The notes beneath the pieces are model-generated. The model made no database searches. It was not told where the DNA came from and worked only from the letters and a program-made list of their open reading frames with translations. The translations under genes and the position numbers were made by a program. 64,000 nucleotides of DNA from Anaeromyxobacter sp. Fw109-5 (GTDB taxonomy: Bacteria; Myxococcota; Myxococcia; Myxococcales; Anaeromyxobacteraceae): positions 186,001 to 250,000 of the forward strand of contig NC_009675.1 in NCBI RefSeq assembly GCF_000017505.1, written 5' to 3'. This document shows positions 11,535 through 42,889 of this stretch, piece after piece (within the stretch, counting starts at the first letter, position 1; each line of letters opens with the position of its first letter).

Positions 11535-11553
11535 GTTCCGAGGAGGGAACACG

Positions 11554-11701: not shown

Positions 11702-11723
11702 GGGCACCTAGTAATGTCTCGGC

Positions 11724-13337: not shown

Positions 13338-13348
13338 CGCGGCCGCCC

Positions 13349-14107
13349 GTGCCCCGCCCCCCGCAGGCCAACCGCCAGCTCGAGCTCTTCGACGCGCGCC
13401 GCGCCTCGCGCGAGGCGCGGCTCTCGGCGGCCAGCCGGCTCGCCGACTCCCTGTCCGGCATCCTCTCCGAGCGCGTGCGCCTCACCGTTCACGACAACCG
13501 CTCGACCATGGTGTCGTTCCGCCGCGGCTCGGGCGGGATCCACTACCGGCTCCACCACATGTTCCTCGGCGCCCCCGGGGAGGTGGTGCGGGCGCTCGCC
13601 GCCTTCGCCGGCCCCACCCGCGGCGCGTCGGCGCGCCGGCGCGAGGCCGGCTCGCGCATCGACGCCTTCGTCCGGCACAACCGCGCGCGGATCGCGGTCC
13701 CGCGCGCCGACCGGCTCCAGCCTCGCGGGCGCGCCCACGACCTGCAGCAGATCTTCGATCGCCTCAACGCGGCCCACTTCGGCGACGCCATCCAGGCGCA
13801 CATCGGCTGGGGGGCCGTCCGCGGCGGGGCGCGCCGCCGCACCGTGAAGACGGGCGTGTACGTGCAGGACGCGCGCATCATCCGCATCCACCCCACGCTC
13901 GATCGACCCGAGGTCCCCGAGTTCTACGTCGCGCTGGTGGTGTTCCACGAGATGCTCCACCAGGCGGTGCCGGCGCGCGAGGTGAACGGGCGCCGCGTGG
14001 TGCACGGCGCGGAGTTCCGGCGGCGGGAGCGCGCCTACCCGGACTACGCGCGCGCGAAGGCCTGGGAGGAGGGAAACCTGGGCCTGCTCCTCTCGTCGCC
14101 CACGTAA
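13349..14107 (+). CDS. SprT-like zinc metalloprotease-domain protein
   Basis: 252 residues from the GTG at 13349; the open frame extends far upstream but overlaps the NFACT gene and is shadow there. The C-terminal half has the zincin motif HEMLH (residues 200-204) with a probable third ligand His219 in VVHGAEF. LNAAHFGDAIQAHIGWG and the distal Arg/Tyr-rich end also resemble SprT/Spartan-like domains, which in eukaryotes cleave DNA-protein crosslinks. The N-terminal 110 residues contain a separate conserved-looking Arg-rich part (LSERVRLTVHDNRSTMVSFRR) of unknown role. The bacterial substrate is unknown. Confidence 0.8.
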   Translation: MPRPPQANRQLELFDARRASREARLSAASRLADSLSGILSERVRLTVHDNRSTMVSFRRGSGGIHYRLHHMFLGAPGEVVRALAAFAGPTRGASARRREAGSRIDAFVRHNRARIAVPRADRLQPRGRAHDLQQIFDRLNAAHFGDAIQAHIGWGAVRGGARRRTVKTGVYVQDARIIRIHPTLDRPEVPEFYVALVVFHEMLHQAVPAREVNGRRVVHGAEFRRRERAYPDYARAKAWEEGNLGLLLSSPT

Positions 14108-14231
14108 GCGGCGCCGCCGCGCCGCGCGGTCGGCGGCCGCAGATCACTCCGCGCGAACCCCCATCGGGCGCCTCGAGCGCGCCGAAAACAAACCGGCGGG
14201 GTCCCCGGGCGTGCGCCATAATCCCCGCTCG

Positions 14232-16253
14232 ATGGTGCGCCGCGTCGCTCTCGCGCTGCTCGTCCCGCTCGCGCTCGGCGCCACCGGCTGCCTGCGCGCC
14301 CGCGGCACGGAGAGCGAGCCGATCGTGACCGAGCTGAAGCTCGAGGGCGTGGAGGCCCTCGACGCCGAGGACATCAAGGCGAAGCTCGCGACGCAGGAGC
14401 CGGCCGCGCCGGGGGGCGTCACGGGGCTCGTCAGGCGCGAGGGTTTCCCGCTGGATCCGGACGCCCTCGCGTCCGATCGGCGGCGCGTCGAGGCGTTCTA
14501 CCGCGACCGCGGCTACTACGCGGCGCGCGTCGACAAGGTCGACGTGGTGCCCGACGGGCCCGGGCGCGCCCGCGTGGTGATGCACGTGGTGGAGGGGAAG
14601 CCGGTCCGGGTGACCGAGCTGCACATCAAGGGGCTGGAGGAGGTGGCCGAGGCGCGCGAGCGGCTGAAGGAGCTGCCGCTCGAGGTCGGGGACGTCTTCC
14701 GCGTGTCGGCCTACGACGCGACGAAGGCGGCCATCACCAGGGGGCTGCGCACGAAGGGCTGGGCGAACGCGGAGGTGACGCAGGCCGCCCAGGTGCTGCC
14801 GCAGGAGGGGACCGCGCAGGTGACGTACGAGGTGAAGGCGGGTCGCCGCTTCCGCTTCGGCCCGATCTTCGTGGCGGGGACCTCGGCGGTCTCGCGCGAT
14901 CTCGTGCGCGAACAGGCCTCGGTGGACGTGAGGACCGGTGCCTGGTTCGACGAGTCGAAGCTCTCGAAGGCGCAGGCGCGCGTGTTCAACCTGGGCGTCT
15001 TCGCCGGGGTGCGCGTGACCCGCGGCACGCCCAGCGCGGAGCGGGGCATCATCCCGGTGGTGGTGGCGGTGCGCGAAGCTCCCTTTCGCACCATCCGCGC
15101 CGGGCCCGGCCTCGGGGTGGAGGCGACGCGCTGGGAGGCGCGGGGCAACGCGTCGTGGCAGCACCGCAACCTGTTCGGCGAGCTGCGGCGGTTCGGGATC
15201 GACCTGCGGGCCGGCTACGCCTGGCTGCCCACGCCGTGGGCCGACCAGCGCAGCGGCGTCGTCGCGCTGATCGGCTTCGAGTTCCAGCAGCCCGCCGCCA
15301 TCGCCCGCCGCCTCGACGTGTCCGCCCGGGTGGAGGTCGAGCGCGGGCTCGAGCTCGCCTACGGGTTCTGGGCAGAGCGGGTCGAGCTCGGCCTCCCCGT
15401 CCGGATCTCCCCGCGCTGGACGTTCATCCCCTCCTACAACCTCGAGGTGTACCAGCTCTCCGACGCGCCCGAGGCGGTGGTGACCAGGCCCGGCACGCCG
15501 GAGGCCGAGACCCGCCCGCTCCTCGTCGGCTGCCCGAGCAGCACCTGCCTCCTCTCCTACCTGGAGCAGCGCCTCGCCTGGGACGGGCGCGACGATGCCG
15601 TGAACACCCGGCGCGGCTACTACGTCGGGCTCTCGCTGCAGGAGGGCTTCCGCATCGGGACCGTCGGCTACCGCTACCTGCGCTTCCTCCCCGAGGTGCG
15701 CGGGTTCTGGCCCCTCTCGCGGAAGCTCGTGCTCGGCGCGCGGGCGCGGGTGGGCGCGCTCGTCCCGCTCACCGAGCCGAAGGAGCCGCCCATCGTCGCG
15801 AACTTCTACTCGGGCGGCCCGCTCTCGATGCGCGGCTACTACACCCGCCGCCTCTCCCCGATGATCGAGGTGGGCAAGAACGACTGGGTGCCGGTCGGCG
15901 GCAACGGGCTCTTCGACGGCTCGCTCGAGCTGCGCTACGCGTTGGCCGGGAACTGGTCCGGCGCGTGGTTCCTCGACGCCGGGAACGTGGCGCCGCCGGA
16001 CAACGGGGAGACCGCCTGGCGCGAGGCCCTCTCGCTCGGCGACCTCCAGCTCGCGAGCGGGGTCGGCCTCCGCTACGCGACCCCGTTCGGACCGATCGGC
16101 GTCGACGTGGGGGTGCGGCTGCCGACCGACCTCTCGTCCGGGGTCCCCTTCGACAAGCGCTTCCCGCCGGTGCCCTCGAACCCGAACGCCGGGACTGCGG
16201 AGCACCGTGAGCCGATCGTCGCCGTTCACATCACCATCGGCGAGGCGTTCTAG
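14232..16253 (+). CDS. tamA: Omp85-family outer-membrane assembly protein, TamA-like
   Basis: 673 residues: signal peptide, two or three POTRA-like repeats (about 35-300) and an Omp85/BamA surface-antigen barrel (about 330-673) with GGPLSMRGYYTRRL, matching the conserved RGY/F motif region, and FGPIGVDVGVRL near the end. Its stop overlaps the GTG of tamB by one base, which supports TamA over BamA; TamA and TamB together help insert autotransporters and move phospholipid toward the outer membrane. The signal peptide ends LALGATGC with Cys20, a borderline lipobox. The start at 14232 follows CATAAT by nine bases and has no ribosome site, so a leaderless message is possible. Confidence 0.88.
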   Translation: MVRRVALALLVPLALGATGCLRARGTESEPIVTELKLEGVEALDAEDIKAKLATQEPAAPGGVTGLVRREGFPLDPDALASDRRRVEAFYRDRGYYAARVDKVDVVPDGPGRARVVMHVVEGKPVRVTELHIKGLEEVAEARERLKELPLEVGDVFRVSAYDATKAAITRGLRTKGWANAEVTQAAQVLPQEGTAQVTYEVKAGRRFRFGPIFVAGTSAVSRDLVREQASVDVRTGAWFDESKLSKAQARVFNLGVFAGVRVTRGTPSAERGIIPVVVAVREAPFRTIRAGPGLGVEATRWEARGNASWQHRNLFGELRRFGIDLRAGYAWLPTPWADQRSGVVALIGFEFQQPAAIARRLDVSARVEVERGLELAYGFWAERVELGLPVRISPRWTFIPSYNLEVYQLSDAPEAVVTRPGTPEAETRPLLVGCPSSTCLLSYLEQRLAWDGRDDAVNTRRGYYVGLSLQEGFRIGTVGYRYLRFLPEVRGFWPLSRKLVLGARARVGALVPLTEPKEPPIVANFYSGGPLSMRGYYTRRLSPMIEVGKNDWVPVGGNGLFDGSLELRYALAGNWSGAWFLDAGNVAPPDNGETAWREALSLGDLQLASGVGLRYATPFGPIGVDVGVRLPTDLSSGVPFDKRFPPVPSNPNAGTAEHREPIVAVHITIGEAF

Positions 16254-27407: not shown

Positions 27408-27449
27408 GCTCCCGCGCCGCGGCCTCCGCCGACGGGGCCCCGGCCGCGC

Positions 27450-28454
27450 TCAGCGCGGCGCGGCCGCGGACAGGCCGAGCCGGGTGAGCACCTGCTCGCG
27501 CAGGAGCGGCAGGTAGCTCTTGTCGCAGTAGCTGCGGATGGCGACGTAGCAGCCGCGGCAGTCGTTCGTGCGCGCGAAGCGCTGGATCAGCTCCCGCTGC
27601 GAGCGCGCCTTCACCGGCTTGTGGGCACACGGGCGGAAGAACCCCTCGGGCGTGACGAGCAGGAAGCGATAGCCGGCGCGGCAGCCGGGGATCCCCCCGT
27701 CCGCGAAGAAGCGGTAGAGGCCGTCCAGGTCGGGCGCCGGGTTGCGCACGGGCCCTCCCCGCCGCTTGAGGTCGAGGACCGCGTCGAGCTGGGCCCGCAG
27801 CCCTCGCAGGTCCTCGGGCGACGAGACGAGGTAGTCCGTGTTCCCCGTCCGCAGGGCGGAGTACGCGCTGAAAGAGATGCTCGAGCCCCATCTGCGCGCC
27901 GTCTCGCACAGCCGGGTCAGGTCGCCGGCGTTGAGGCGAGACACGGCGCAGTTCAGCACCACGTCGCCGTGGCCGCGCGAGGTCAGCTCCGGCACGAGCC
28001 GCTCGAGCCTGCGGAAGAGGCCGGGTACGCTGCGGAAGTCGTCGTGGCGCTCGTCGGGGAAGTCGAGCGAGATGGAGAACTGGTTCACGCCGGCGGCGCG
28101 CAGCGCCTCGTACTTGGGGGCGCTCAGGAGCGTGCCGTTGCTGACCACGATGAGGTAGGGGGCGCCGCGGCGCTCCTTGATCGCGCGCGCCACCTCCACC
28201 ACGTCGCGGCGGAGCAGGGGCTCGCCGCCGGAGAGCTGGACCGCCACCGGCCGGAGCTCACGGTAGATCTCGCCGATGCGCTGCGGCGAGAGCGGCGTCT
28301 CGTCGCGCAGGATCCCGCCCTTGTCGCAGTGCTTGCACCGGGCGTTGCAGGAGCCGGTGAGCTCGAAGGAGACGACCAGCGGGCGATCCGCCAGGTAGTT
28401 CCGGCTGCCGCGCAGGAAGAGGCGGAGGACGGTCGCGACGCCGAGCTGGTCCAT
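27450..28454 (-). CDS. Radical SAM enzyme with SPASM-like C-terminal cysteines
   Basis: 334 residues. The radical SAM cluster motif is Cys36-x3-Cys40-x2-Cys43 (GSCNARCKHCDKGG), followed by QLSGGEPLLR, which binds SAM. The C-terminal third carries Cys258, Cys276, Cys299, Cys302 and Cys310 spaced like a SPASM/twitch domain that holds auxiliary iron-sulfur clusters, as in peptide- and lipid-modifying family members. The start has a GGGAGG ribosome site. It lies 13 bases after the Tes-like gene and is the last gene of the seven-gene minus-strand operon. The substrate is unknown; association with lipid or lipoprotein chemistry is inferred from the operon. Confidence 0.88.
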   Translation of the reverse strand: MDQLGVATVLRLFLRGSRNYLADRPLVVSFELTGSCNARCKHCDKGGILRDETPLSPQRIGEIYRELRPVAVQLSGGEPLLRRDVVEVARAIKERRGAPYLIVVSNGTLLSAPKYEALRAAGVNQFSISLDFPDERHDDFRSVPGLFRRLERLVPELTSRGHGDVVLNCAVSRLNAGDLTRLCETARRWGSSISFSAYSALRTGNTDYLVSSPEDLRGLRAQLDAVLDLKRRGGPVRNPAPDLDGLYRFFADGGIPGCRAGYRFLLVTPEGFFRPCAHKPVKARSQRELIQRFARTNDCRGCYVAIRSYCDKSYLPLLREQVLTRLGLSAAAPR

Positions 28455-28467
28455 GCGGGCGCCTCCC

Positions 28468-30267
28468 TCACACGGTTCGTGCGCCCGCGCCCGCTCCTTC
28501 GCCCGCGGCGCCGCGGCGGGCCCGCCACTCCTGGAGCGGGATGGCGTGCTTCCGCTCCACGCGCTGACGGTGAACGGGGCCGCAGTTGTAGGCGCAGAAC
28601 GGGAACATCCCCTCCGGCGTGGAGTAGTGGATCACGCAGCGCTTCACGCGCTCGACGTCGAAGTTGTAGCGATCCTGGAAGTGCATCCCCGCCGCGAGGA
28701 GCGTCCGGTAGGTGCGCTCGCCGGCGCGCCCGCGGCCGACCCTCTTGTCCGTCATGCCGCGCAGCGCGTGCAGGAAGGTGCGGACGGTCAGCCCCTCCGG
28801 CGCGAGCTCCTTGCGGAAGTGGCGCGCGAAGAGGAGCGGGACGCGGACCTTGTGGAGGCCGCGGAAGCGCGCGCGCTCGACCCGGGAGGCCAGCCGATCC
28901 AGGTCGCGGAAGAGCCCCTCGACGTCGAGGAAGCGCGTGATCGGCACGGCGTTCCCGTGCCGGTCCACGACGAAGTACGCGCCCGACGAGCAGGCCGGAT
29001 GGGCGGTGGCGGTGATCTTGGGGTCGCCGGTGAACGCGGCGATGAGGCGCGACAGCGGCGCGGTGATGGCGAGCGGGTAGAAGTCCCGCATCGGCTCGAG
29101 CCAGCCCGCCGCGCCGAGATCGCCCGCGAGATCACCCAGCGTGTAGCGCTTGGCCTCGCGATCGGCGAGGGAGATGCGCCCCGTGAACGAGACGGGCTGG
29201 TAGGCGATCCCGCTCACCACGTGGATGTTGTCGATCGCGAACCGGAGGATCTTGGCGACCTGATCGTCGTTCACCCCCTTCACGATGGTCGGCACGAGGC
29301 AGACCTTCATCCCGGCGGCGTGGATCTGCTCGAGCGCGCGGCGCTTCACCTCGAGCAGCGGCCGGCCGCGGGTGACCTCGTGCACGGCGTCGTCGACGCC
29401 GTCGAACTGCAGGTAGATGGTGTGCAGCCCGGCCTCCGCGGCGGCCTTCGCGAACCCCGGCTCGGCGAAGCGGATGCCGTTGCTCGCCGCCTGGACGTGG
29501 CTGAAGCCGAGCTCGTTCGCCCTCCGCACGAGGGCGAGGAAGTCGGGGTGGAGGGTCGGCTCGCCGCCCGAGAACTGCACCGCCGTCGCCGGCACCGGGC
29601 GGTAGGCGCGGAGCCGCTCGAGGAGCGCGACGGCCTCGTCGAAGGTCGGCTCGCACACGTAGCCCGTCGCGCTCGCGTTCGCGAAGCAGATGGGGCAGCT
29701 CAGGTTGCAGCGGTTCGTGAGGTCGATCTGCCCGAGCATCGTGTGGCTCTGGTGCATGTTGCACAGGCCGCAGCTGCCGGGGCAGGCGTCGGCGGCGGGC
29801 ACGCGCGGGTTCTCGACGCCGGCGCCGTCGCGGAAGCTCCACTGCTGCATCTTGAGGAACAGGGCGCTGTTCGTGAACACCCGGTCGCGCACGTAGCCGT
29901 GCTCGGGGCACGTCTTCTCCATGTACACGTCGCCCCGCCAGTCGAACACCCGCCCCAGCACCGTCCGCGCGCACTCGGGGCAGAGGGTCTCCACCGTCTT
30001 CGGCAGGGCGCGCACCACCGGCCGGATGGGCGTGCCCGAGTACGTTCGCACCGCGGAGCCGGGGCGATCGGGTGCGGCCTCGTGGAACAGCACGTCGTGC
30101 AGCGCCTCGCGGATGGCCCCGTGCTCGGGGCAGGTCTTCTCGAGGACCACCCCGTCGCCGCTCACCCTCAGCGTCGCCGCGAGCACGCGCTCGCACGCCG
30201 TGCACTGCGACTGCATCGGGCTGCTAGGGGCCTGGGTGAGCCGCGGATCCGAGGACGCCTGCGCCAT
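28468..30267 (-). CDS. Radical SAM enzyme of the MJ0619/Tes (tetraether lipid synthase) class
   Basis: 599 residues. Two N-terminal iron or zinc knuckles (Cys22-x2-Cys25 with CPEHG at 46-50; Cys96-x2-Cys99 with CPEHG at 120-124) precede the CPGSCGLC cluster (Cys162, 166, 169) and the radical SAM triad Cys187-x3-Cys191-x2-Cys194 in TNRCNLSCPICFANA. Cys426 and the C-terminal group Cys544, Cys558, Cys562 (HYSTPEGMFPFCAYNC) complete the family pattern. The archaeal member MJ0619 (Tes) joins lipid tails by carbon-carbon bonds; bacterial relatives are candidates for membrane-spanning lipids. The ATG at 30267 is chosen over one at 30294 because AAGGGGGAG precedes it. Reaction and substrate here are inference. 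Confidence 0.85.
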   Translation of the reverse strand: MAQASSDPRLTQAPSSPMQSQCTACERVLAATLRVSGDGVVLEKTCPEHGAIREALHDVLFHEAAPDRPGSAVRTYSGTPIRPVVRALPKTVETLCPECARTVLGRVFDWRGDVYMEKTCPEHGYVRDRVFTNSALFLKMQQWSFRDGAGVENPRVPAADACPGSCGLCNMHQSHTMLGQIDLTNRCNLSCPICFANASATGYVCEPTFDEAVALLERLRAYRPVPATAVQFSGGEPTLHPDFLALVRRANELGFSHVQAASNGIRFAEPGFAKAAAEAGLHTIYLQFDGVDDAVHEVTRGRPLLEVKRRALEQIHAAGMKVCLVPTIVKGVNDDQVAKILRFAIDNIHVVSGIAYQPVSFTGRISLADREAKRYTLGDLAGDLGAAGWLEPMRDFYPLAITAPLSRLIAAFTGDPKITATAHPACSSGAYFVVDRHGNAVPITRFLDVEGLFRDLDRLASRVERARFRGLHKVRVPLLFARHFRKELAPEGLTVRTFLHALRGMTDKRVGRGRAGERTYRTLLAAGMHFQDRYNFDVERVKRCVIHYSTPEGMFPFCAYNCGPVHRQRVERKHAIPLQEWRARRGAAGEGAGAGARTV

Positions 30268-30310
30268 GATCTCCCCCTTGACGGTCGGTGCCATGGACGA
30301 GGGTACCGGT

Positions 30311-31006
30311 CTACGGCACGACGCTATAGCCCTCAGGTGCGGTGAACAGAAAGAGTGAGCCCTCGATCGCGACCCCTCTTTGCACGTCGGAGAGCACGAA
30401 CCGCGTCGTGTCGCCGGAGGTCTCGTGCAGCAGGATGTCGCGGGGTAAATGATCTTTGGGGTCGAGCGTCAGCTCGACGCGGGTGAACGAGGCGGCGAGC
30501 TCGGGACCGCGCGGCGTCAGGGACAGCACCGGCGCGCCCCCGGCGCCGAAGGCGAGCGTCGTCTCGAACGCGTCCGCGAGCGCCGCTCCGCAGGCGCCGA
30601 AGCCGATCGTCGAGAGGATCCCCTCGGCGCGCGAGCGGCCGACGGTGAACCGCTGCACCTGGCGGATGCGCGGAAACACCGCCCAGCCGCGATCGCCCGC
30701 GATGACGGTCCACGCGCGGTCCGGCGCGGAGTACTCCCACCGGAGCCTGTCCGGCTTCCGGTAGTAGAGGACGCCGGACGAGCGGTCCTCCTCTCCGATG
30801 GCGGTGAACCCCTTCGTCTGGACGAAGCGGGCGCGGAGCGTGGTGGTGGCCTCGCGCGCGCGGCAGTGCGCGTCGAGCACCCCGGCGAGCGTCCGCGGCG
30901 GCCCGTCACGCCCCGCAGCGGGCGAGGGCGGAGCCGCCAGGAGGAGCGCGACGAGCGCGACGGCCGCCGCCGGACGCGCTCCGCGCGGGAGCTCAGGCGC
31001 CGGCAT
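30311..31006 (-). CDS. LolA-like periplasmic lipid/lipoprotein carrier
   Basis: 231 residues. A signal peptide (about 1-31, AAAVALVALLLAAPPSPA) precedes a LolA-type half-barrel: early LRARFVQTKGF, then SGVLYYRKPDRLRWEYSAPD, which is the hallmark LolA segment, and a C-terminal TRFVLSDVQ strand. LolA proteins carry acylated cargo across the periplasm to the outer membrane. The start lies 14 bases inside the preceding VTT gene. The Tes-like gene begins 43 bases after its stop. Cargo is unknown, and because the operon also has an ABC transporter and an outer-membrane lipoprotein, this is probably a dedicated second Lol-like route. Confidence 0.85.
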   Translation of the reverse strand: MPAPELPRGARPAAAVALVALLLAAPPSPAAGRDGPPRTLAGVLDAHCRAREATTTLRARFVQTKGFTAIGEEDRSSGVLYYRKPDRLRWEYSAPDRAWTVIAGDRGWAVFPRIRQVQRFTVGRSRAEGILSTIGFGACGAALADAFETTLAFGAGGAPVLSLTPRGPELAASFTRVELTLDPKDHLPRDILLHETSGDTTRFVLSDVQRGVAIEGSLFLFTAPEGYSVVP

Positions 31007-31676
31007 CGTCGGAGCTCCGGGTGCGCGCGCGCGCCCCGCGCGCGCGATCGAGGGCGGCCTTCGCGGCGCCGACGAGCGCGATCGCGAGCGCGACCACGAA
31101 GATGGTGAGGTTGGAGGGCCGCAGCTCGTGCCCCAGCACCGCGAACAGGAGATAGCGGGGGAACCTGCCCACGTAGGACGCGAGGACGTACGCGGGGAGC
31201 GGGTAACCAGCGGAGATCGCGAGCAGGCGCACCGCGTCGACCGGCAGGGGGACGAAGGAGGCGAGCGCGAGCGAGAGGAACGGCGCCCGGCGGAACCACG
31301 CGACGGCGCGAGCGTGCCACGCGCTCTCGCGCGCCCGCCGGAGCCGGCCGGCGCGCCAGAGCCCGCTCACGATGTGGTAGTCGTGCAGGTTCGCGATGCA
31401 GGTCCCGGCCGTCGCTACCAGCGCGACCCACAGCACGCCGGCCTCGCGCGCCGCCCACAGCACGATCCAGGCCGTCGGCAGCGGGAGGAACGTGCACGCG
31501 AAGCTGAGGTAGAGCAGCAGCAGGATGAGGACCTCGAGGCCGGGGCTCCGCAGCGTGTTGCGGGCGAGCCAGAGCGCCGCGCCGCTCGCGGCGACGAACC
31601 CGGTGAAGGCGAGCGCCCACGAGCGCCAGGCGAGGTCTCGCGTCGCCGCGGCGGCGCGGGTGGCGGGGAGGCTCAT
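30993..31676 (-). CDS. VTT/DedA-superfamily membrane protein
   Basis: 227 residues with about five hydrophobic segments. The VTT-like part runs from about residue 50 to 200 and contains FLPLPTAWIVLWAA, FVPLPVDAVRLLAISAGYPL and ASYVGRFPRYLLFAVLG, which align in kind with the conserved Pro-Arg-Gly core of TVP38/TMEM64/DedA proteins. Relatives move lipids between bilayer leaflets. It ends in a basic Arg-rich tail. Its ATG overlaps the ATPase stop (ATGA), and it overlaps the LolA-like gene by 14 bases. In this operon a lipid flippase or scramblase role is the simplest reading. Confidence 0.78.
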   Translation of the reverse strand: MSLPATRAAAATRDLAWRSWALAFTGFVAASGAALWLARNTLRSPGLEVLILLLLYLSFACTFLPLPTAWIVLWAAREAGVLWVALVATAGTCIANLHDYHIVSGLWRAGRLRRARESAWHARAVAWFRRAPFLSLALASFVPLPVDAVRLLAISAGYPLPAYVLASYVGRFPRYLLFAVLGHELRPSNLTIFVVALAIALVGAAKAALDRARGARARTRSSDDAGA

Positions 31677-32431
31677 GCCCCATCCTCGGGCGCGAGCAGG
31701 GGGGAGGCGGACCGCGGCCGGAGCGCGCCGGCGGGAACGGCTGCGCCGTCCCGCATCTGGATGACCGTGTCCGCCACCGCCGCGCACTCCGCGTCGTGGG
31801 TGATCATGAGGATGGTCGGCCCCGCGCCCGTCCCGATCTGCCGGAAGAGCGACATCACGGTGCGTGCGTTCGTCGAGTCGAGGTTCCCGGTGGGCTCGTC
31901 GGCCAGGACGAGGCGCGGCTCCTTGACGAGCGCGCGCGCGATGGCGACGCGCTGCTGCTCGCCCTGGGAAAGGTCGAGCGGCCGGCTGCGGCGCTTGCTC
32001 TCGAGGCCGACGCGCGCGAGCAGCGTCCGGATGCGCTCGTCCGACCGGTCGGTCCGCCCGGCGATGCGGCAGGCGAGCTTCAGGTTGTCCTCCACGGTGA
32101 GCGCGGAGATGAGGTTGAGCCGCTGGAACACGAACCCCACGTCGCCGCGCCGGAAGGCGGTGAGCGCCCGCTCCGGCGCGCGCGTCACCTCGAGGCCTCC
32201 GACGCGCACCGAGCCGGAGGTGGCCCGGAGCATCCCGCCCACCACGTAGAGCAGCGTGGACTTGCCGCAGCCGGACGGGCCCATGACGGCCGCGAACGTC
32301 CCCGGCGCGACGTCGAGGTCGATCCCGCGCAGCGCCGGAACGGCGATCCGCCCGCTCCGGTACTCCTTCACCAGCCCCCGGACCTGGATGGCGCTCCCGC
32401 CCGGCACCTCGCTCCTCTCGCGCCCCGTCAT
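31673..32431 (-). CDS. ABC transporter ATPase, LolD/MacB type
   Basis: 252 residues. Walker A GPSGCGKST near residue 52, the Q-loop segment GFVFQRLNLISALTVEDN, signature LSQGEQQRVAIARAL, Walker B LVLADEPTGNLDS and the H-loop histidine in ITHDAEC are all intact. The LNLISALTVEDN and TGNLDS forms are typical of LolD/MacB/FtsE-type ATPases that drive mechanotransmission rather than classical transport. It is translationally coupled to the permease upstream and the VTT gene downstream by ATGA overlaps. Confidence 0.95.
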   Translation of the reverse strand: MTGRERSEVPGGSAIQVRGLVKEYRSGRIAVPALRGIDLDVAPGTFAAVMGPSGCGKSTLLYVVGGMLRATSGSVRVGGLEVTRAPERALTAFRRGDVGFVFQRLNLISALTVEDNLKLACRIAGRTDRSDERIRTLLARVGLESKRRSRPLDLSQGEQQRVAIARALVKEPRLVLADEPTGNLDSTNARTVMSLFRQIGTGAGPTILMITHDAECAAVADTVIQMRDGAAVPAGALRPRSASPLLAPEDGA

Positions 32432-33522
32432 TCGTAGCTCAGCGCCTGCACGGGATCCTGCCGCGCGGCGAACCAGGCCGGGTACAGCGCCCCGAGGAGG
32501 CCGCTCGCGATCCCGACCCCCCCGCCCACGAGGATCCAGAACCGCGTCACCTCCACCGTGAGGAGCGGGTACCAGCTCCGCAGCGCCGCGACCGAGGCGA
32601 GCGTGAGGGCGTAGCCCGCGAGGACCCCGCAGCCGGTGAGCAGCAGGGACTCCAGCACGACCGTGCCCATGATGCGGCGCCGCGAGGCGCCGAGGGAGCG
32701 CAGGATCCCGATCTCGCGCGTCTTCCCCAGGATGGTCATGTACATGGCCAGCGAGACGACGAGCAGGCTGACGACGAGCGTGGTGCCCGTGATCGCCCCG
32801 ATGAACTCCCGGAGCCCGGTCATCGAGCGCGCCATCTCGTCGGCGAGCCCCTCCAGGATCTGGCAGCGCACGCCTTCGATCGCGGCCTCGATCGCGGCGG
32901 CGGTCGACTTCACCGCCCCCGGCGACGTGCAGCGCACGAAGAAGAGCGACACGCGCCGCTCCTGGTGGAGCATCGCCTGCAGCTCCGCCATCGGGAGGAA
33001 GATGCGCGCCCCGACGCCCTCCTTCGAGACGCCCACGATCTCGAACCGGGCGCCGAGGATCTCGACGCGATCGCCCACCGCCAGCCGGGCCGCGGCCGCG
33101 AGGCGGGAGTCGACGACCACCTCACCTCGTCCGCGCAGCGGTCGCCCCTCCACGATCCGCAGCCCGCCGCCGATGGAGGAGAACTGCTCGGGGTCGATGC
33201 CGTAGACGACGTAGAACGCGTTCCGGAAGGTGGTCGTCCAGGCGACCACCGGCGAGACGGCCGCGACGCCGGGCAGCGCCCGCAGCCGCTCGGCGTAGCG
33301 CTCCGGGAGCACGCCGCTCTTCAGGGCCAGGAACTGGGTCGCCCCGGCGGGCTGCACGATGAGGTCGCCGCCGACGTTCTGGATGCGCTGCGCGACCTCC
33401 TGGATGGATCCCCGGGTCAGACCCACCACCACGAGCAGCAGCGCCACGCCGATCCCGATGGCGAGGACGCAGATCGCGCTCCGCACCTTCTTCTGGAGGA
33501 CGTTGGCGAGGGCGAGCGTCAC
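32428..33522 (-). CDS. ABC permease, FtsX/MacB/LolC-E type
   Basis: 364 residues: one N-terminal helix (about 18-38), a periplasmic MacB-PCD-like domain (about 45-225), then three C-terminal helices forming the FtsX domain with KTREIGILRSLGASRRRIMGT, the conserved coupling region, and YPAWFAARQDPVQALSYE at the end. Because only one permease gene is present, the transporter should be a homodimer, as in LolF-type systems, instead of LolC plus LolE. It overlaps both neighbours by four bases. Confidence 0.93.
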   Translation of the reverse strand: MTLALANVLQKKVRSAICVLAIGIGVALLLVVVGLTRGSIQEVAQRIQNVGGDLIVQPAGATQFLALKSGVLPERYAERLRALPGVAAVSPVVAWTTTFRNAFYVVYGIDPEQFSSIGGGLRIVEGRPLRGRGEVVVDSRLAAAARLAVGDRVEILGARFEIVGVSKEGVGARIFLPMAELQAMLHQERRVSLFFVRCTSPGAVKSTAAAIEAAIEGVRCQILEGLADEMARSMTGLREFIGAITGTTLVVSLLVVSLAMYMTILGKTREIGILRSLGASRRRIMGTVVLESLLLTGCGVLAGYALTLASVAALRSWYPLLTVEVTRFWILVGGGVGIASGLLGALYPAWFAARQDPVQALSYE

Positions 33523-34352
33523 CGGTCGCGCTCCGTCCCGTCGACCCTCTCGACCCGCGCTCCGGGGGGAGACAGCGGCCGGAAGGCGCGCGCGTCCAGC
33601 CCGGGCGGATTCACCGTGAGAGAATCGAACTCGACGAGGACGGAGCCGCCGGCGACGGGGTCCTGCACGCTCAGCCGCTCGGGCTGGAGCCGCCCGTCGC
33701 GCTCACGCTGGCGCTCCCGGAGGATGACGAGCTCCTCCCGCCCGTCGGCGTCGTAGAGCACCTCGCGCTCGACGGCGAACCGCCGCCGCTCCACCCAGAG
33801 CCGCCGGTGCAGCCGGCCCGCCCGGCGGATCGAGAGGACGTACGTCTCGCCGTCCTCCCGGACCTCCAGCGCGTCTGCGGGGCCGGGCGGCTCCACGAAC
33901 AGCGCGCGGAGGAGCGCGCGCGCGTCCAGGCGGAGCTCCCGGCCCCGGGCCACGACGCCGCGCACCGTGGTGCCCGTGTACACCACGCGCTCGCTCGGGA
34001 CGTGCAGCCAGAAGCGCTCACCGTCGCTCACCAGCGTGAACAGCGTCGGCATGAGGGAGCGGTAGCCCTCCACGAACAGCCCGGGCGCCGCGCCGTCGCT
34101 CCACGGGCTGCGGGCCGCGAGCGCGCCGCGGCAGGAGCGCGCGCCCGCGGCCGCGCGCTCCTGGAAGGTGAGGGTGACCTTTCCCTTCAAGGCCACGAGG
34201 CCCGCGGCGTCGTCGACGAGCCGCCGCGCGAGCTCCTCGGGCGAGGCCGTGCGGATCGGGCGTCCGGAGAGCGGATCGCCTGGCGCCTGGCGCGCCGCGC
34301 AGCCCGCGATCAGCGCCGCGAGCGCCGCCCCCAGCCACGGCCCGGATCGCAT
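33519..34352 (-). CDS. Outer-membrane lipoprotein, DUF4292/LolB-like
   Basis: 277 residues from the ATG at 34352; an upstream in-frame ATG would add 12 residues and push the signal peptide inside. The signal peptide ends in lipobox LIAGC, so the mature protein is lipidated on a cysteine near residue 18 and lacks Asp at +2, consistent with outer-membrane sorting. The body (LKGKVTLTFQER, LVSDGERFWLHVPSERVVYTG) has the strand pattern of LolA/LolB-fold DUF4292 proteins. As the first gene of the seven-gene operon it is a candidate outer-membrane receptor for the LolA-like carrier. Confidence 0.82.
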   Translation of the reverse strand: MRSGPWLGAALAALIAGCAARQAPGDPLSGRPIRTASPEELARRLVDDAAGLVALKGKVTLTFQERAAAGARSCRGALAARSPWSDGAAPGLFVEGYRSLMPTLFTLVSDGERFWLHVPSERVVYTGTTVRGVVARGRELRLDARALLRALFVEPPGPADALEVREDGETYVLSIRRAGRLHRRLWVERRRFAVEREVLYDADGREELVILRERQRERDGRLQPERLSVQDPVAGGSVLVEFDSLTVNPPGLDARAFRPLSPPGARVERVDGTERDR

Positions 34353-34442
34353 GGCCACAGCGTCGCACGGCGGATGGGTGGCGGACACTGCCCCGAGAGA
34401 CCCCCCCGAAGCGACGAGTCGACACGGGGATGAGACGATCCG

Positions 34443-37400
34443 TCAAGCGCGGCGCCGGAAGCGCTCCTTCACCTCGTAGGCGAAGGCGTCGAGGATCTCC
34501 GGGTCGATCGGGTCGCCGTTGAGCGAGAGGGTCAGGGAGAGGAGTCCCTCGCGCTCCCGCGCGTGGACGAGCTGGGCCTCGGTCAGCTTGTCGGGCATGC
34601 ACTCGAGCGGGCCCACGCAGACCGCGCCGTCGATCTCTCCGCGCCGCCACTGCACGAGGGGGAGGCCCACCGCGAGCACCGCCTCGTGCTCGAGATCGTC
34701 GCGGAGGTAGGGCGCCGCGGCCGCGAGCGCCTCGTCCAGGCGCGGGTGATCCGGCCACCCCATGGCCCGCGCCATCGCGCGCCGGCACGTGCGGAGGATG
34801 CGCCGGCGGATCCAGCCCTTGAGGCGGTCCTGCGGCGCGCCGCGGAGGCCGCGGCGCACCTGGACGTGATCGGAGTACTCCAGGTACTCGGCCACCGGCT
34901 CGAGCCGCACCCGGACCCCGCGCTCCTCGAGGGCGTCGCCCACGCCGCCGTTCGCCCCCGGATCGGAGCGCAGGTAGATCTCGCCCACGAGCATCACGGT
35001 GGGGTGCGGCCGCGCGGTCTTGAGCGCCCGCAGCGCGCGGCCGGTGCGCTCGAGCAGCGCCGTGACGCCGTAGTTCCCGCCGCTCGCGGCCTCCAGCAGC
35101 ACGCGGCGCGCCGAGAGGTCGGCGCCGGCCGCGCGCTCCAGGAGCCGCGTGAGCTCGCCGGAGGCCGCCGCGTGGACGCGCGCCGCGGCCCCTCGCTCGC
35201 GCTCCACCGGACGGACGTCGCGGAGCGCGTCCTCCAGCAGGCCGAACGCGGCGATCCCCGCGAAGACGAGCGCGCCGAACCCGGCCGGCACACCCGCGAA
35301 GTAGTCCGAGTCGGGCGGCGACCAGATCCCCACGCGCGCGCCGTGCCCGAGCCGCTCGAGGATCATCTGGTGGAGCTGCCGGTAGTAGCCGAACCGGCAG
35401 GGGCCGTTCGACCCCGGCATGAAGAACGAGAGCCGCTCGCCCGGGTCGGCGCGCTCGAGCCGCTGGAGCAGCGAGCCGAGCGTCACGATCATCGGCAGGC
35501 ACTCCTTGCCGCTCGTGTGGCGCCGCGCCTGGCGGATCGCCTCCGCGCTCGCCGCCGGGAGCACCTCCGCGGGGACGCCGTACCCGCGCAGCGCCGCCGC
35601 GAGCGAGTGGGCCTCGGCGCCCATGGGCGGCACGAGCACGCGCGAGCCTCGACGCGCGATCTCGGGCAGCGACTGGGAGGCGAGCGCGAGCAGCGGCGCG
35701 GCCGAGGCCGCGGCGCTCCCACCGGAGCGCAGATCCTCGCGGACGCAGTGGAGGAAGGCCTCCACGCGCGTCTTCGTCCCCGCGTCGCCGGCGTGGCCGT
35801 CCGTCTCGATGACCGCGAAGGGCTTCCCCTCCATGAGGCGCGCGTACGCGTGGAGGGTGAAGCTGTCGGGCCCGCACCCGTAGTTGCTCGCGAACAGGCT
35901 GTAGACGCCGGGCGTGCGCCGCACCTCGTGGGCGGCCCGGAGGATCCGCTGCGTGTAGCCCCAGAACGCGCCCGGCACCATGGGGGTGGCGGGATCCGTG
36001 GGGTAGCAGTCGGTGGGGATCGCGACCGCCCCCTGCTCGCGCAGCAGCGCCGGGATGTTGGCGCTCAGGACCGGGTCGTGGATCGTGTAGGTGCGGCCGA
36101 GCACGACCACGGGGAGGAGCCCCCCGGCGCGGCAGCGTTCGAGGGCGCTGCGCCCGATCCCGATCAGCGCGGCGTCGAAGCGCGCCTGCTCCTCGCGCGC
36201 GGCGGCGTGGGCGGCGCGCCAGGTCTCCTCGTCGCGGACGCCCAGGTCCTCGGCGATGGAGCGGCAGGTGTCGAGGAACGCCGGCGCGTCGAGGAAGCCC
36301 GGGCCGAGCTTGATCGCCGGCGAGAGCACCCGCCGTCCGGCGAGGAGCGGGCGCAGGTCGAGCCGGAGCACGTCGGCGCTCCCCGCCACGATCGGGCAGA
36401 GCCAGTGCGACTCCTCGTCCTTCACGGGGGGCAGGTCGCGGAGCATGGGCAGGAACACGCGCTCGGCGGGCGCCTGCGCCAGGGCCGCCACGAGGCCGTG
36501 GTACTGCTGCATCGGCGCGCAGAACGGGACGTTCGCCCCCTCCGCCCCGCGGCGCAGCGCCTCCCGCCCCCCGCCCTGCGCCACCACGAGGTCGAAGTCG
36601 AGCGCGCGGAAGAACCGGGCGAAGAACGGGAACAGCCCCTTCAGCTGGAACGCCTCCGCGAGCGCGACCCGCGGCGCGCCCGTCGGCGCCGCCAGCGGTC
36701 GCAGCACCGCCTCCACCAGCTCGGCTCGCTCGCGGAACGGATCGGGCGCGCCGTCGGGGAGCTTGCGCGCGCGCGTCCCTCCGTCGTGGAGCGAGCACCC
36801 ACCCCCCCAGGAGAAGGCGCGCCGCTCCCCCTGCACCCGGGTGCGGATCCGCTCGATGCGGCAGGCGTTCCCCGAGCCGCCGCAGCCGGTGCTCGAGCGG
36901 CAGACGAAGGTGTCCTTCCGCTCCACCCGCGCGTCGAGGAACCTCGCCAGCTCGAGCGGCGCGCCCGAGGCGAGCGCCTCGCGCGCGAGCAGCGCGATCC
37001 CCCACGCCCCCACCGTGCCGGGATTCGGGGGCACGATCACCTCGGCGCCGGTCTGCCGCGCGACCGCCGCCGCGAGCGCGTCCGCGGCGAACGGCATCCC
37101 CTGGCAGAAGACCACCTCGCCCACCGAGCGGTTGCCCTTCACGCGGTTCAGGTAGTTCTGCACCACCGAGTCGTAGAGCCCGGCGACGAGACGCGGCCGC
37201 GTGACGCCGGCGGCCGCCGCCTCGTCGAGGATCTCCGCCATGAACACCGCGCAGTGCTGGCCGAGGGCGGCGCAGGCGTCGGCCCCGACCGCGACGCGCG
37301 CCAGCGCCTCCACGTCGAGGTTCCCGAGGCGGACGCCCTGCTCCTCGATGAACGAGCCCGTGCCGGCGCTGCACGCCTCGTTCATCGCGGCGTCCACCAC

Positions 37401-38687
37401 CCGCCCCGCCGCGAGCCGGATGTACTTCGCGTCCTGGCCGCCGATCTCGAAGATGGTGTCGACCCGCGGGTCGCAGGCGCGCGCCCCCTCGGCGTGGGCG
37501 GCGATCTCGTTCAGGACGTGCACGCGGTCGCCGCCGAAGCAGGTCGTGAGGAGCGATCCGACGATCTCGCGGCCGCTGCCGGTGACGCCGAAGCCCGCCA
37601 CGGCCGCGCCGGCCGGCCCTCCGGCGGCCCGGCGCACCAGCTCCTGCGCCGCGCCCACCGGGTCCCCGGCCGTGCGGGTGTAGCTCTCCCAGAGCGGCGC
37701 GCCCGAGGGGACGTGGAGCGCCACCACCTTGGAGCCGGTCGAGCCGATGTCGAGCCCGAGTAGGAACGCGTCGCCTTCGCTCACCGGGGGTGGTGCACGG
37801 CGCGGGAGGCGGTGGACGCTGCCCATGGCGTCGGACAGGGGGGGACGCAGCTCCACCGGCGCGTGGGCCGGCGGCGAGACGAGGTCCTCCGGCCTCGGCA
37901 GCGGCCCGTCGCCCCGCGCCGCCAGCACGGCGCAGCCGAGCGCGTCCAGGTACAGCGCGTCCTCGCCGTGCTCCTCGGCGAGCGTCATCCCGCGCTCCGC
38001 CAGGCGGCGGCGGAACCGCTCGCGGACCCTGCGCGAGCGTCCGACGCCTCCGGCGAGCACCACCGCGGGAGAGACGGCGCCCGCCCGGGAGCGGAGCAGC
38101 ACCTGCACGTTGTCGCAGATGGCGTCGAAGAGGCCCGCGAGGATCCGCGCCCGGTCCTCGCCCTGGTTCGCGAGGTGGGTCATGTCCGTCTTGAGGATGA
38201 CGGGGCAGCGCCCGGAGAGGTGCGCCGGCTCCTCCACGGGCGCCGCGAGGACGTCGGCCTCCTCGGGCGCGAGGCCGAAGCGCTCCACGAGCTGCCGCAG
38301 GAAGTTGCCGGTGCCTTGCGAGCAGCGCGGGTTCTCCCGGTACTCGGCGTCCTCGCCGCCGTTCACCTCCAGGACCGAGAAGCCGTGCGCGCCGATGTCG
38401 ACGATGACGGCGGGCCCGTCGCCGCGGAGGAAGCGGTGGCCCGCGAGGCGCGCCTGCTTGCCCGGGACCCGCGAGAGCGCGAGCTGCCGGCCGAGGCGGC
38501 CGGTGGCGACCGCGCCGCGGAGGCCGTCCCAGCCCCACTCGCGGAGGAGCTCGCCGAGGGCGGCCCCGGGCGTCTTGTGGTGCTCGACCCGGGCGCGCCG
38601 GCGCCAGACGAGGCCTCCCGGCTCGCCGGCGAGCTCGACCACCTTCAACGTCTCGGCACCTGCGTCCACCCCGAGGAAACGCGGCAT
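34443..38687 (-). CDS. Tandem BcrA/BadF-type activase fused to a dehydratase-like Fe-S reductase, 1414 residues
   Basis: Two complete ASKHA activase domains (about 1-260 and 308-570) each keep the paired cluster cysteines: Cys122/Cys161 in CSQGTG and CPVILK, and Cys439/Cys479 in CSAGTG and CAVF. Ordinary activases are homodimers sharing one [4Fe-4S] cluster, so the tandem could be a single-chain pseudodimer. The remaining 840 residues match the DUF2229/COG3580-3581 group related to 2-hydroxyacyl-CoA dehydratase and double-cubane-cluster proteins, with many cysteines (CRSSTGCGGSGNAC, YGCGPDS, KECLPM, NGPCRFGYYRQ). It probably performs ATP-driven low-potential electron transfer; the acceptor is unknown. 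The stop lies 90 bases before the lipoprotein operon on the same strand, so read-through is possible. Confidence 0.9.
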   Translation of the reverse strand: MPRFLGVDAGAETLKVVELAGEPGGLVWRRRARVEHHKTPGAALGELLREWGWDGLRGAVATGRLGRQLALSRVPGKQARLAGHRFLRGDGPAVIVDIGAHGFSVLEVNGGEDAEYRENPRCSQGTGNFLRQLVERFGLAPEEADVLAAPVEEPAHLSGRCPVILKTDMTHLANQGEDRARILAGLFDAICDNVQVLLRSRAGAVSPAVVLAGGVGRSRRVRERFRRRLAERGMTLAEEHGEDALYLDALGCAVLAARGDGPLPRPEDLVSPPAHAPVELRPPLSDAMGSVHRLPRRAPPPVSEGDAFLLGLDIGSTGSKVVALHVPSGAPLWESYTRTAGDPVGAAQELVRRAAGGPAGAAVAGFGVTGSGREIVGSLLTTCFGGDRVHVLNEIAAHAEGARACDPRVDTIFEIGGQDAKYIRLAAGRVVDAAMNEACSAGTGSFIEEQGVRLGNLDVEALARVAVGADACAALGQHCAVFMAEILDEAAAAGVTRPRLVAGLYDSVVQNYLNRVKGNRSVGEVVFCQGMPFAADALAAAVARQTGAEVIVPPNPGTVGAWGIALLAREALASGAPLELARFLDARVERKDTFVCRSSTGCGGSGNACRIERIRTRVQGERRAFSWGGGCSLHDGGTRARKLPDGAPDPFRERAELVEAVLRPLAAPTGAPRVALAEAFQLKGLFPFFARFFRALDFDLVVAQGGGREALRRGAEGANVPFCAPMQQYHGLVAALAQAPAERVFLPMLRDLPPVKDEESHWLCPIVAGSADVLRLDLRPLLAGRRVLSPAIKLGPGFLDAPAFLDTCRSIAEDLGVRDEETWRAAHAAAREEQARFDAALIGIGRSALERCRAGGLLPVVVLGRTYTIHDPVLSANIPALLREQGAVAIPTDCYPTDPATPMVPGAFWGYTQRILRAAHEVRRTPGVYSLFASNYGCGPDSFTLHAYARLMEGKPFAVIETDGHAGDAGTKTRVEAFLHCVREDLRSGGSAAASAAPLLALASQSLPEIARRGSRVLVPPMGAEAHSLAAALRGYGVPAEVLPAASAEAIRQARRHTSGKECLPMIVTLGSLLQRLERADPGERLSFFMPGSNGPCRFGYYRQLHQMILERLGHGARVGIWSPPDSDYFAGVPAGFGALVFAGIAAFGLLEDALRDVRPVERERGAAARVHAAASGELTRLLERAAGADLSARRVLLEAASGGNYGVTALLERTGRALRALKTARPHPTVMLVGEIYLRSDPGANGGVGDALEERGVRVRLEPVAEYLEYSDHVQVRRGLRGAPQDRLKGWIRRRILRTCRRAMARAMGWPDHPRLDEALAAAAPYLRDDLEHEAVLAVGLPLVQWRRGEIDGAVCVGPLECMPDKLTEAQLVHAREREGLLSLTLSLNGDPIDPEILDAFAYEVKERFRRRA

Positions 38688-40785: not shown

Positions 40786-42678
40786 CTACCGGTCCCCCAC
40801 CGTGGCCGCCGCCGGCAGCGGTCGCGGCACGTGCGCGGGGGCGACCTCCTCGCCGCGCATGGCGCGCAGGATCCTGCCCGCGCTGGCGGCGAGCCGGGCG
40901 CTGGCGTCGGGGAGCGGCCGGTCCTGGGGATCGGTGACCTCGGCGCCGGCGAGGCCGGCGTAGACGGTGACCTTGAGGTCCTTGCCGATCACCGCGTAGC
41001 GGGGCTCCCAGCCCACGGTGGACAGCACGAAGCGGTCCTCGGGCGCCTCGAACATCGAGAGGCCGTCGGAGTGGAGCGACGGCGCGTGCGTGTCGCCGAG
41101 CAGCGAGAAGAGCGTGGGGACCACGTCCACGTGGCTCGTCGGGGCGTCGCGCGTGGCGGCGGGGATCCCGTCGCCGAGCACCACGAGCGGCACGTGGATC
41201 TGCTCGTCCGTCACCGCCGACCCGTGGCCGAGGTGCCCCTTCTCCTTGAACTCCTCGCCGTGGTCGCCGGTGAAGATCACGAGGGGCCTGCGGCCGCGCG
41301 CCTGCTCGAACCAGGAGAGGAACTCCTCCAGCGTGCCGTCGAGCGCGTACGCCGCGTTCTTCGCGCGGTTGCGGATGGTCTCGGGCGCCGCCGTCGTGGC
41401 CTGCAGCCCGCCCGAGCCGTCCCAGGCCGGCCGGAACGGCTCGGCGCCGGGCGGGTGGAAGTAGTTGAAGTGGGTCCCGTAGAGGAACAGGAACATGAAG
41501 AGCGGCTGTCCGGGCGGCACCGCCGCGGCCATCGCGCGCGCGTCCGCGAGGAGCTGCGGATCGCGATCGCCCCAGCCCTCGCCGTCGCAGCGGTTCCTGA
41601 GGTCCTCGCTCGATACGCCCGCGAACACCGTCTCGCGGAGATCCATCCAGTCGAGGCAGGAGGCCGAGAGCGCCTTCACCGCGTAGCCGTTGTGGCGGAG
41701 GGCGGGGAAGAGCACCGGCCGCCGCCCGGCGCCGAGGGTCGCCTCGAGCTTCTGCGCCTGGATCCCGTAGAGGAGGCTGAAGAGCGTGTAGTGGGTGGCG
41801 ACGGAGCCCGCGTAGTGGCGCGTGAAGCGGGTGCCGGCCTCGGCGCGGCGCCACAGGTTCGGCATCACCTCCGGCGCCAGGTGCGCGGCGGGGAGGCTCT
41901 CCGCCAGGATGAACAGCACGTCCGGCGCGCGGGTGAAGCGGATCTCCTCCGGCGCGACGCCGGCCGGCAGCCGGAGCGACTCCTGCCCGGCGAACTGGTC
42001 CACCGCGCGCTTGCCGAACACGCGCGAGTAGACGGAGTTCATGCGCAGCGGCACCTGGAGCGGCAGCACGCCGGAGGCGGCGAACATCGCCGGGCCTCCG
42101 AAGTACACGAGCCCGGCGCCGTACACGCGCTCCGCGCCAGCGGCGAGGAGCAGCGCCAGCGCGATGCCCCAGGTCCGCCGCGGCGTCGCGAAGCGACGGA
42201 TGAACCAGGCCCCCAGCGCGACGTCGAGCGCGACGAAGGCGATCCCGATCCCGAGGAACAGCGCCACGTCCGCCGGCGAGATGCCCGTCTCCTTGAGCGC
42301 GTACGGCTGGAACATCACGCGGACGAAGAAGCCGTTCATGTGGAAGCCGACCGCGCCGTAGATGCGGCTGTCCAGCGCGAGGACGCTCGTCGCGAGGCCG
42401 AGCACGGCGGGCGCCGCGACGCGGTACGCGCCCGGCTTGAGCGAGAAGGGGAGCGCGACCACGAACGCGGCGAGCGCGAGGAGCCCCGCCTGCGGGAGGA
42501 AGATGGGCCAGAGCGGGAGCCGGTACGCGGCGGGGGAGTTCCCGACCGCCGCCGCGATCGAGCTCGCGTACAGGGCCAGGAACAGCGGGACGTGCAGGAG
42601 CGACCAGACGAGCGCCGGGAAGCGGTACCCGCTCCCGCCTCGCGTCGCCCCGGCGCCGATGTGGAGCGCACGGGACAT
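40786..42678 (-). CDS. Membrane-anchored sulfatase-superfamily hydrolase, LtaS/YejM-like
   Basis: 630 residues from the ATG at 42678; the frame extends 25 residues upstream but without signal. Five N-terminal membrane helices (about 15-215) precede a periplasmic alkaline-phosphatase/sulfatase domain: DVLFILAESL (metal site and nucleophile region), GTHFNYFHP, FTGDHGEEF with metal-binding Asp-His, and GHGSAVTDEQIHVPLVV. Relatives include lipoteichoic acid synthase, phosphoethanolamine transferases and YejM/PbgA, which monitors LPS. An envelope lipid role is likely; the precise reaction cannot be read from the sequence. Confidence 0.86.
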   Translation of the reverse strand: MSRALHIGAGATRGGSGYRFPALVWSLLHVPLFLALYASSIAAAVGNSPAAYRLPLWPIFLPQAGLLALAAFVVALPFSLKPGAYRVAAPAVLGLATSVLALDSRIYGAVGFHMNGFFVRVMFQPYALKETGISPADVALFLGIGIAFVALDVALGAWFIRRFATPRRTWGIALALLLAAGAERVYGAGLVYFGGPAMFAASGVLPLQVPLRMNSVYSRVFGKRAVDQFAGQESLRLPAGVAPEEIRFTRAPDVLFILAESLPAAHLAPEVMPNLWRRAEAGTRFTRHYAGSVATHYTLFSLLYGIQAQKLEATLGAGRRPVLFPALRHNGYAVKALSASCLDWMDLRETVFAGVSSEDLRNRCDGEGWGDRDPQLLADARAMAAAVPPGQPLFMFLFLYGTHFNYFHPPGAEPFRPAWDGSGGLQATTAAPETIRNRAKNAAYALDGTLEEFLSWFEQARGRRPLVIFTGDHGEEFKEKGHLGHGSAVTDEQIHVPLVVLGDGIPAATRDAPTSHVDVVPTLFSLLGDTHAPSLHSDGLSMFEAPEDRFVLSTVGWEPRYAVIGKDLKVTVYAGLAGAEVTDPQDRPLPDASARLAASAGRILRAMRGEEVAPAHVPRPLPAAATVGDR

Positions 42679-42687
42679 CGGCCGCGG

Positions 42688-42716
42688 AACGTAGCACCGG
42701 CGGGGGCCGCACGCCA
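42688..42716 (-). promoter_or_regulatory. Possible promoter of the sulfatase-type gene
   Basis: Minus-strand TGGCGT (42716-42711), 17-base spacer, TACGTT (42693-42688), nine bases before the ATG at 42678. The -35 is weak. Confidence 0.3.
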
Positions 42717-42889
42717 CCGAGGGGAGGGCGAAAGGGGGAGCAGGCGAGCGCACGCGTGGAAGGACGCGGGTTCTGGCCGCGCCCCGCGAGTCCCGCGCGT
42801 GATCGCGTCCGGCGGGGGCGCGGGCCTTCCACCTCGCGCCGAGGTCGGTCGCCGTCGCGGTCGCCCGCCGCGTGGGCTAAGAAGCGGCG

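Follow-up and report, generated by a model that had tools for sequence, protein, structure and literature searches.

A horizontally acquired gene cassette of Anaeromyxobacter sp. Fw109-5 proposed to combine tail-to-tail lipid coupling with a dedicated Lol-type route to the outer membrane

A window of 64,000 nucleotides of Anaeromyxobacter sp. Fw109-5 (contig NC_009675.1, positions 186,001 to 250,000) contains a compact run of seven genes on its minus strand (27450-34352 of the window), in which a radical S-adenosylmethionine (SAM) enzyme of the tetraether synthase class (Tes) is encoded together with components of a Lol-type transport system. We interpret this run as a horizontally acquired cassette in which the tail-to-tail coupling of lipids (ether lipids, if the adjacent Ger-type reductase takes part) would be combined with Lol-type transport to the outer membrane by a route of its own, a reading that we place at an even balance between right and wrong. 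Judged by sequence, its biosynthetic part is well supported, and the cargo of the route is a prediction. Branched tetraether lipids are used for the reconstruction of past climates, and their bacterial makers, their pathway and the membrane that hosts them are uncertain.

Gene families were called by the curated Pfam and NCBIfam cut-offs. All seven genes of the original prediction were found where it had placed them, in the order LolB-like outer-membrane lipoprotein (33519..34352, with a possible GTG start at 34388), FtsX/MacB-type permease of a LolC/E-like ATP-binding cassette (ABC) exporter (32428..33522), LolD/DevA-type ABC ATPase (31673..32431), VTT/DedA-superfamily membrane protein and putative lipid scramblase (30993..31676), LolA-type periplasmic carrier of lipids or lipoproteins (30311..31006), Tes (28468..30294) and a second radical SAM enzyme, whose C-terminal part is of a reduced SPASM/twitch type (27450..28454, referred to as rSAM2). 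The first four genes overlap one another by 4 bp at each of their three junctions, the VTT and LolA genes overlap by 14 bp, and the LolA-Tes and Tes-rSAM2 gaps are 16 and 13 bp long, respectively, the former becoming 43 bp if the second Met is taken as the start of Tes, so the predicted run of overlaps or gaps within 43 bases holds.

The product of the sixth gene scored 514.9 bits against the Tes model NF045702, above its curated equivalog cut-off of 450, and is 41% identical to the crystallised Tes of Methanocaldococcus jannaschii (MJ0619, PDB 7TOL). The window protein keeps each of the 15 residues that bind metal in the archaeal crystal structure (listed in PMC9433317, where the macrocyclic product of the archaeal enzyme is also described): the rubredoxin site (C105, C108, C129 and H132, in a C-X2-C-X20-C-X2-H arrangement), the N-terminal cluster (C171, C175, C178 and H181), the CX3CX2C motif of the radical SAM cluster (C196, C200 and C203) and the C-terminal cluster (C435, C553 and C567, with the labile Met537), so that the sites of the rubredoxin iron and of all three [4Fe-4S] clusters are complete. 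Assignment to TrsS, a selenoprotein radical SAM family, was rejected with 333 bits against a cut-off of 490. From its sequence, the window protein is a genuine Tes-class enzyme with a complete ligand set, and it is strongly implied that this enzyme links lipid tails end to end by a C-C bond. It shares with the archaeal enzyme (Tes, or GDGT-MAS) the radical SAM core, the rubredoxin-type iron site, both auxiliary clusters and the labile Met, and differs from it in belonging to a bacterial clade, in having an extra N-terminal zinc ribbon and in its substrate, which must be bacterial glycerolipids. The neighbourhood is also different, since a profile search of the flanks of the archaeal Tes loci examined yielded no LolA, LolB or VTT genes.

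The distribution of Tes in the phylum points to an arrival of the cassette by transfer. Among 195 Myxococcota genomes, including eight others of the same genus, Tes was detected at E <= 1e-100 in the window genome only, so genus-wide conservation of the set was ruled out. The gene just upstream of the cassette (ger) is, unlike Tes, widespread in the genus and the family, and we used it to choose the closest relative (G006, locus L118). The DNA of this relative is collinear with the window on both sides, but there argB comes immediately after ger and a block corresponding to about 27408-34380 of the window is missing, leaving a clean empty site. These data support, as read from the sequence, an insertion of all seven genes in one piece between ger and argB. 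The alternative, that the relative lost them, is less probable, because Tes is missing from all the other members of the genus as well. The G+C content of the block is 0.70-0.75, compared with about 0.76 in the flanks, and the borders predicted for the gene run (27450-34352) are essentially those of the acquired block.

The same-strand gene ger, overlooked in the original prediction, lies outside the block (34443..38687) and encodes a 1,414 aa protein resembling Ger and PlsA, the ester-to-ether glycerolipid reductases. It carries PF01869 (BcrAD_BadFG) in two stretches and DUF2229 (137.5 bits) in one long chain, and this corresponds to the 'BB' architecture with two activation domains that is assigned to Ger (PMC13274423), having in mind that an alkyl (Ger) or vinyl (PlsA) ether product cannot be told from the sequence (PMC11868695, PMC13274423). 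Most genomes of the genus and the family contain a resident copy, 60-84% identical. Of 20 Tes-bearing bacterial genomes, 18 have a Ger homologue, and a Ger-type gene adjoins Tes in eight other loci (L010, L012, L014, L020, L023, L024, L161 and L163) belonging to Planctomycetes, Glassbacteria and Acidobacteriota. Thus, ger probably belongs to the lipid pathway of the cassette. Further upstream, and also collinear in L118, a membrane protein of the sulfatase family (40786-42753; Sulfatase and weak DUF3413 matches) may add or change a lipid head group. A scan of the locus for promoters and terminators found none, and is uninformative at 74% GC.

A scan of 84,980 species genomes was carried out, the genes of each comparison locus being counted from profile matches to all its open reading frames together with genome-wide PF03548 matches. 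All seven genes were also found in an Acidobacteriota (L008) and a Desulfobacteraceae (L009) metagenome-assembled genome (MAG). Identities between these two and the window are highest for Tes (67-68%), rSAM2 (58-62%), FtsX (57-68%) and LolD (52-53%), and lower for VTT (44-51%), LolA (35-41%) and the lipoprotein (32-40%); the five transport genes keep their order, and Tes and rSAM2 shift position. In the tree, the window Tes groups with those of L008 and L009 with full support, and the sister group is a Planctomycete clade. The extra zinc-ribbon stretch at the N-terminus is present in the window Tes, in L008/L009 and in the Planctomycete relatives, and most other bacterial and archaeal Tes matches begin after it. 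Smaller sets were found as well: three Acidobacteriota loci (L170, L180 and L258) have Tes, lipoprotein, FtsX, LolD, a small membrane protein in the VTT position and LolA; Eisenbacteria-type loci (L017, L227 and L228) have a LolB-like gene, Tes and LolA; and in four Desulfobacterota loci (L214, L224, L225 and L226) Tes is followed by LolA. Therefore, the genes are not conserved in the genus, but they are kept together across phyla, complete in L008 and L009 and in a five-gene form in L170, L180 and L258. The core of the predicted pathway, a tail-linked lipid with a Lol-type export, survives this neighbourhood comparison with the qualification that the transport cassette also occurs without Tes.

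The linkage of LolA to Tes was quantified by a PF03548 search of 70 bacterial genomes that bear Tes, the expectation being calculated from genome sizes and LolA counts. Eight of these 70 genomes have a LolA gene no more than 2 kb from Tes (0.12 expected, P about 5e-13), and 12 have one at up to 7 kb (0.42 expected). The linkages fall in about three separate Tes clades of the tree, so kinship weakens this enrichment; the probability of three or more chance linkages is about 2e-4 at 2 kb and 8e-3 at 7 kb. These numbers bear on the simplest rival explanation, a chance co-location in which unrelated envelope genes arrived together or were gathered on an island. The gain of the set as one block and the lack of LolA neighbours beside most bacterial Tes genes would agree with it. 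The recurrence of the set in varied gene orders across groups, the reduced sets in separate Tes clades and a frequency of LolA near Tes far above expectation all speak against it, and we consider it very improbable.

Regarding the transport genes, the families predicted for LolA, VTT and the LolB-fold lipoprotein were recovered, as were those of Tes and the second radical SAM protein, whereas the ATPase resembles LolD, and the permease LolC/E, without reaching these families. For the lipoprotein, Pfam gave no match. Read by eye, it has an ALIAGC lipobox with Ala at position +2, and its model, built from 4 sequences with a mean predicted local distance difference test (pLDDT) score of 75, has a LolA/LolB fold, with Foldseek template modelling (TM) scores, normalised to the target, of 0.68 to Porphyromonas gingivalis LolB and 0.74 to that of E. 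coli. Its homologue in L170 matches Pfam LolA_like with 44 bits. On the basis of this model the protein appears to be a LolB-fold outer-membrane lipoprotein. The permease matches MacB_PCD (95.4 bits) and FtsX (52.6 bits), stays well below the LolCE equivalog cut-off (76.2 against 362.45) and is 42-43% identical to its counterparts in L170 and L180. The ATPase (ABC_tran, 113.7 bits) reaches 183.5 bits with LolD, below the equivalog cut-off of 307.75; its best NCBIfam scores, DevA 192, FtsE 190 and LolD 183, are all under their cut-offs (295.8 for DevA). DevA and MacB are equally near relatives of this pair. VTT is the weakest family match of the seven (PF09335, 39.3 bits against a gathering cut-off of 33.9). 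LolA passes PF03548 (63.0 bits, cut-off 23.6) but not the TIGR00547 equivalog (67.9 against 112), and reaches 56.7 bits with the flexirubin LolA2 NCBIfam model (cut-off 125). A search of the own genome detected two LolA genes, that of the cassette and one housekeeping copy. The cut-off of the Pfam LolA model was also exceeded in the control genomes of two archaea, Methanosarcina acetivorans and Methanocaldococcus jannaschii, which have no outer membrane.

Since lipoproteins are the established cargo of LolA, LolB and LolCDE, the cassette could be an alternative Lol system for lipoproteins. It would travel with Tes because lipoproteins would have to be released from a membrane of tail-linked, tetraether-type chains or would bear such chains themselves; Tes would alter the membrane, and the Lol parts would cope with the change. 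The genes LolB-FtsX-LolD-LolA occur without Tes in many Acidobacteriota, as this rival would allow. The permease family was found in 144 of 396 Acidobacteriota genomes and is commoner in those bearing Tes (26/36) than in the others (118/360; odds ratio 5.3, with kinship ignored), an enrichment to be expected if the cassette served such membranes generally. Its wide occurrence without Tes indicates a general envelope-transport module that was joined to Tes several times. By contrast, lipoprotein sorting does not need a VTT protein, nor a LolA alone beside Tes, without LolCDE or LolB, as in the Desulfobacterota loci L224-L226. In addition, the window genome retains its own housekeeping LolA, and the placement of LolA beside lipid-making enzymes is the pattern of aryl-polyene and flexirubin clusters, for which a lipid cargo is supposed. 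Lipoprotein sorting is thus a possibility to be taken seriously, although we regard it as unlikely.

Among the Tes-less cassettes, those of L262 (2312-6853) and L286 (3201-7691) have their LolA beside a CDP-alcohol phosphatidyltransferase and genes for lipid transport of the Mla type, which hints at a lipid cargo for the cassette in general. In three other loci, L259 (1374-9319), L260 (719-6594) and L265 (5043-12862), LolB-FtsX-LolD-LolA is followed by a Tes-like radical SAM enzyme of another, less complete type, which in L259 reaches about 311 bits with the Tes model, below the cut-off. A related protein in L229 keeps the radical SAM and C-terminal cluster ligands and has lost those of the N-terminal cluster.

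In a third explanation, the cassette would make and export another hydrophobic product (a glycolipid, a lipid A-like or a polyketide-type molecule) on which the Tes-class enzyme acts, and membrane tetraethers would be beside the point. Two Desulfobacterota loci bear on it. In L225 (G696, 28-11309), a lipid A-type acyltransferase, Tes, LolA, VTT (92.8 bits) and two small secreted proteins are found in a run that continues with a B12-binding radical SAM protein (DUF4070), an ABC-2 exporter and two ketosynthase-type genes. By analogy, this would be a second design of a Tes-plus-export cluster, with the same tasks performed partly by other protein families. In L224 (G826, 3976-14383), an MMPL exporter, a lipid A-type acyltransferase, Tes, LolA, an ABC-2 exporter and a ketosynthase are grouped, in what resembles an aryl-polyene-like setting. 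Such companions of Tes, together with the best NCBIfam match of the window ATPase to DevA, a glycolipid exporter, are what this explanation would expect. The window cassette, however, has no ketosynthase, acyltransferase or glycosyltransferase and adjoins a Ger-type glycerolipid reductase, and the ligand set and the 41% identity agree with a Tes that couples glycerolipids, making another product improbable here.

Concerning the second radical SAM enzyme, rSAM2 scored 69.7 bits with Radical_SAM and has a CX3CX2C motif and four conserved C-terminal Cys; its homologues in L009 and L008 are 58-62% identical. It was not assigned to Gms or Grs, having neither a B12 domain nor a full SPASM domain, and no conclusion was built on the fold model of the protein alone (mean pLDDT 45). 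A radical SAM gene also follows Tes in most of the loci L010, L011, L012, L014, L015 and L021 (Planctomycetes, L015 being an unclassified bacterium), and is of the full SPASM type in L011 and L012. The proteins of this Planctomycete clade, sister to that of the window Tes, are only about 26% identical to rSAM2, but the presence of a radical SAM gene after Tes in most of the clade suggests that the pair is common to both.

On the preferred reading, of lipid coupling with its own export, Tes would join the tail ends of glycerolipids by the archaeal radical mechanism on the cytoplasmic side of the inner membrane, acting on bacterial, probably iso-branched, chains. The adjacent resident Ger/PlsA-type reductase would turn the ester bonds into ether bonds, giving lipids of the branched glycerol dialkyl glycerol tetraether (brGDGT) or macrocyclic-diether type, a step implied by the adjacency of ger and Tes and by their co-occurrence in genomes. 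We infer that rSAM2 may further alter the joined chain, for instance by a cross-link or a methyl or ring change, and that VTT may shift the lipid or a precursor between leaflets. LolD/FtsX would then pull the lipid from the outer leaflet of the inner membrane and load it on LolA, which would cross the periplasm, and the LolB-like lipoprotein would insert it in the outer membrane. A macrocyclic lipid occupying one leaflet would suit extraction by LolA and flipping better than a bipolar, membrane-spanning one.

Several points weigh against this proposal. Two of the three full seven-gene sets come from MAGs, and the phylum of these contigs (L008 and L009) rests on binning. In 58 of the 70 Tes genomes no LolA is found within 7 kb, and the LolB-FtsX-LolD-LolA sets without an adjacent Tes need not carry a Tes product. 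The pocket of LolA would be ill suited to a bipolar lipid that spans the membrane and has a head group at either end. Finally, the activity of bacterial Tes is unproven (PMC11868695), and the product, the cargo and the localisation are all predictions from sequence.

The proposed system was also compared with known ones. Bacterial Tes has been proposed as a source of brGDGTs (PMC8941075), and a PlsAR-Tes-Grs pathway has been put forward for Solibacter usitatus (PMC10087280). The proposed bacterial pathway (PlsAR/Ger, Tes or Mss, and Grs) has a Ger-type reductase and Tes in common with the window (PMC10087280, PMC13274423), but the published proposals name no transport step, whereas in the window Ger and Tes share one locus with a Lol-type export set. 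As in the Lol system (LolCDE-LolA-LolB), there is an ABC ATPase, an FtsX-type permease, a LolA and a LolB-fold lipoprotein with the same order of tasks; unlike in it, there is only one permease, the set is a second one beside the housekeeping LolA, the ATPase and permease score well below the LolD and LolCE equivalogs, and VTT, Tes and rSAM2 are part of the same run. Aryl polyene and flexirubin clusters also combine lipid-making genes with their own LolA paralogue, but the seven genes and ger include no ketosynthase/dehydratase/acyl carrier protein set and no MMPL protein, and a distant relation is seen only in the Desulfobacterota L224 and L225. With the DevBCA exporter of heterocyst glycolipids the window shares a DevA-like ATPase and, as proposed here, the export of an unusual envelope lipid; it has LolA and LolB-fold proteins instead of the DevB adaptor and TolC. 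In agreement with the original claim that no such system had been described, an open-library full-text search found no paper linking Tes or tetraethers to LolA-type transport.

What is new in these results is the linkage of Tes to Lol-type genes, its recurrence across phyla, the arrival of the whole set next to ger in a single block and the parallel Desulfobacterota cluster. Together they suggest that bacteria have a dedicated, previously undescribed export route for tail-linked, ether-type lipids. In a broader form, which we hold tentatively and at slightly less than an even balance, a mobile system with an archaeal-type Tes would make tail-linked lipids, macrocyclic or of the tetraether type, and place them in the outer membrane of Gram-negative bacteria from several phyla by means of a private Lol-type relay and VTT, so that archaeal-like lipids would build the outer membrane as well as the inner one. 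The cassette is a compact gene set that can be tested in one species with a complete genome, for which the cassette-free relative offers a natural control. If the proposal is right, Lol-type transport would extend from lipoproteins to whole membrane lipids of the archaeal kind.

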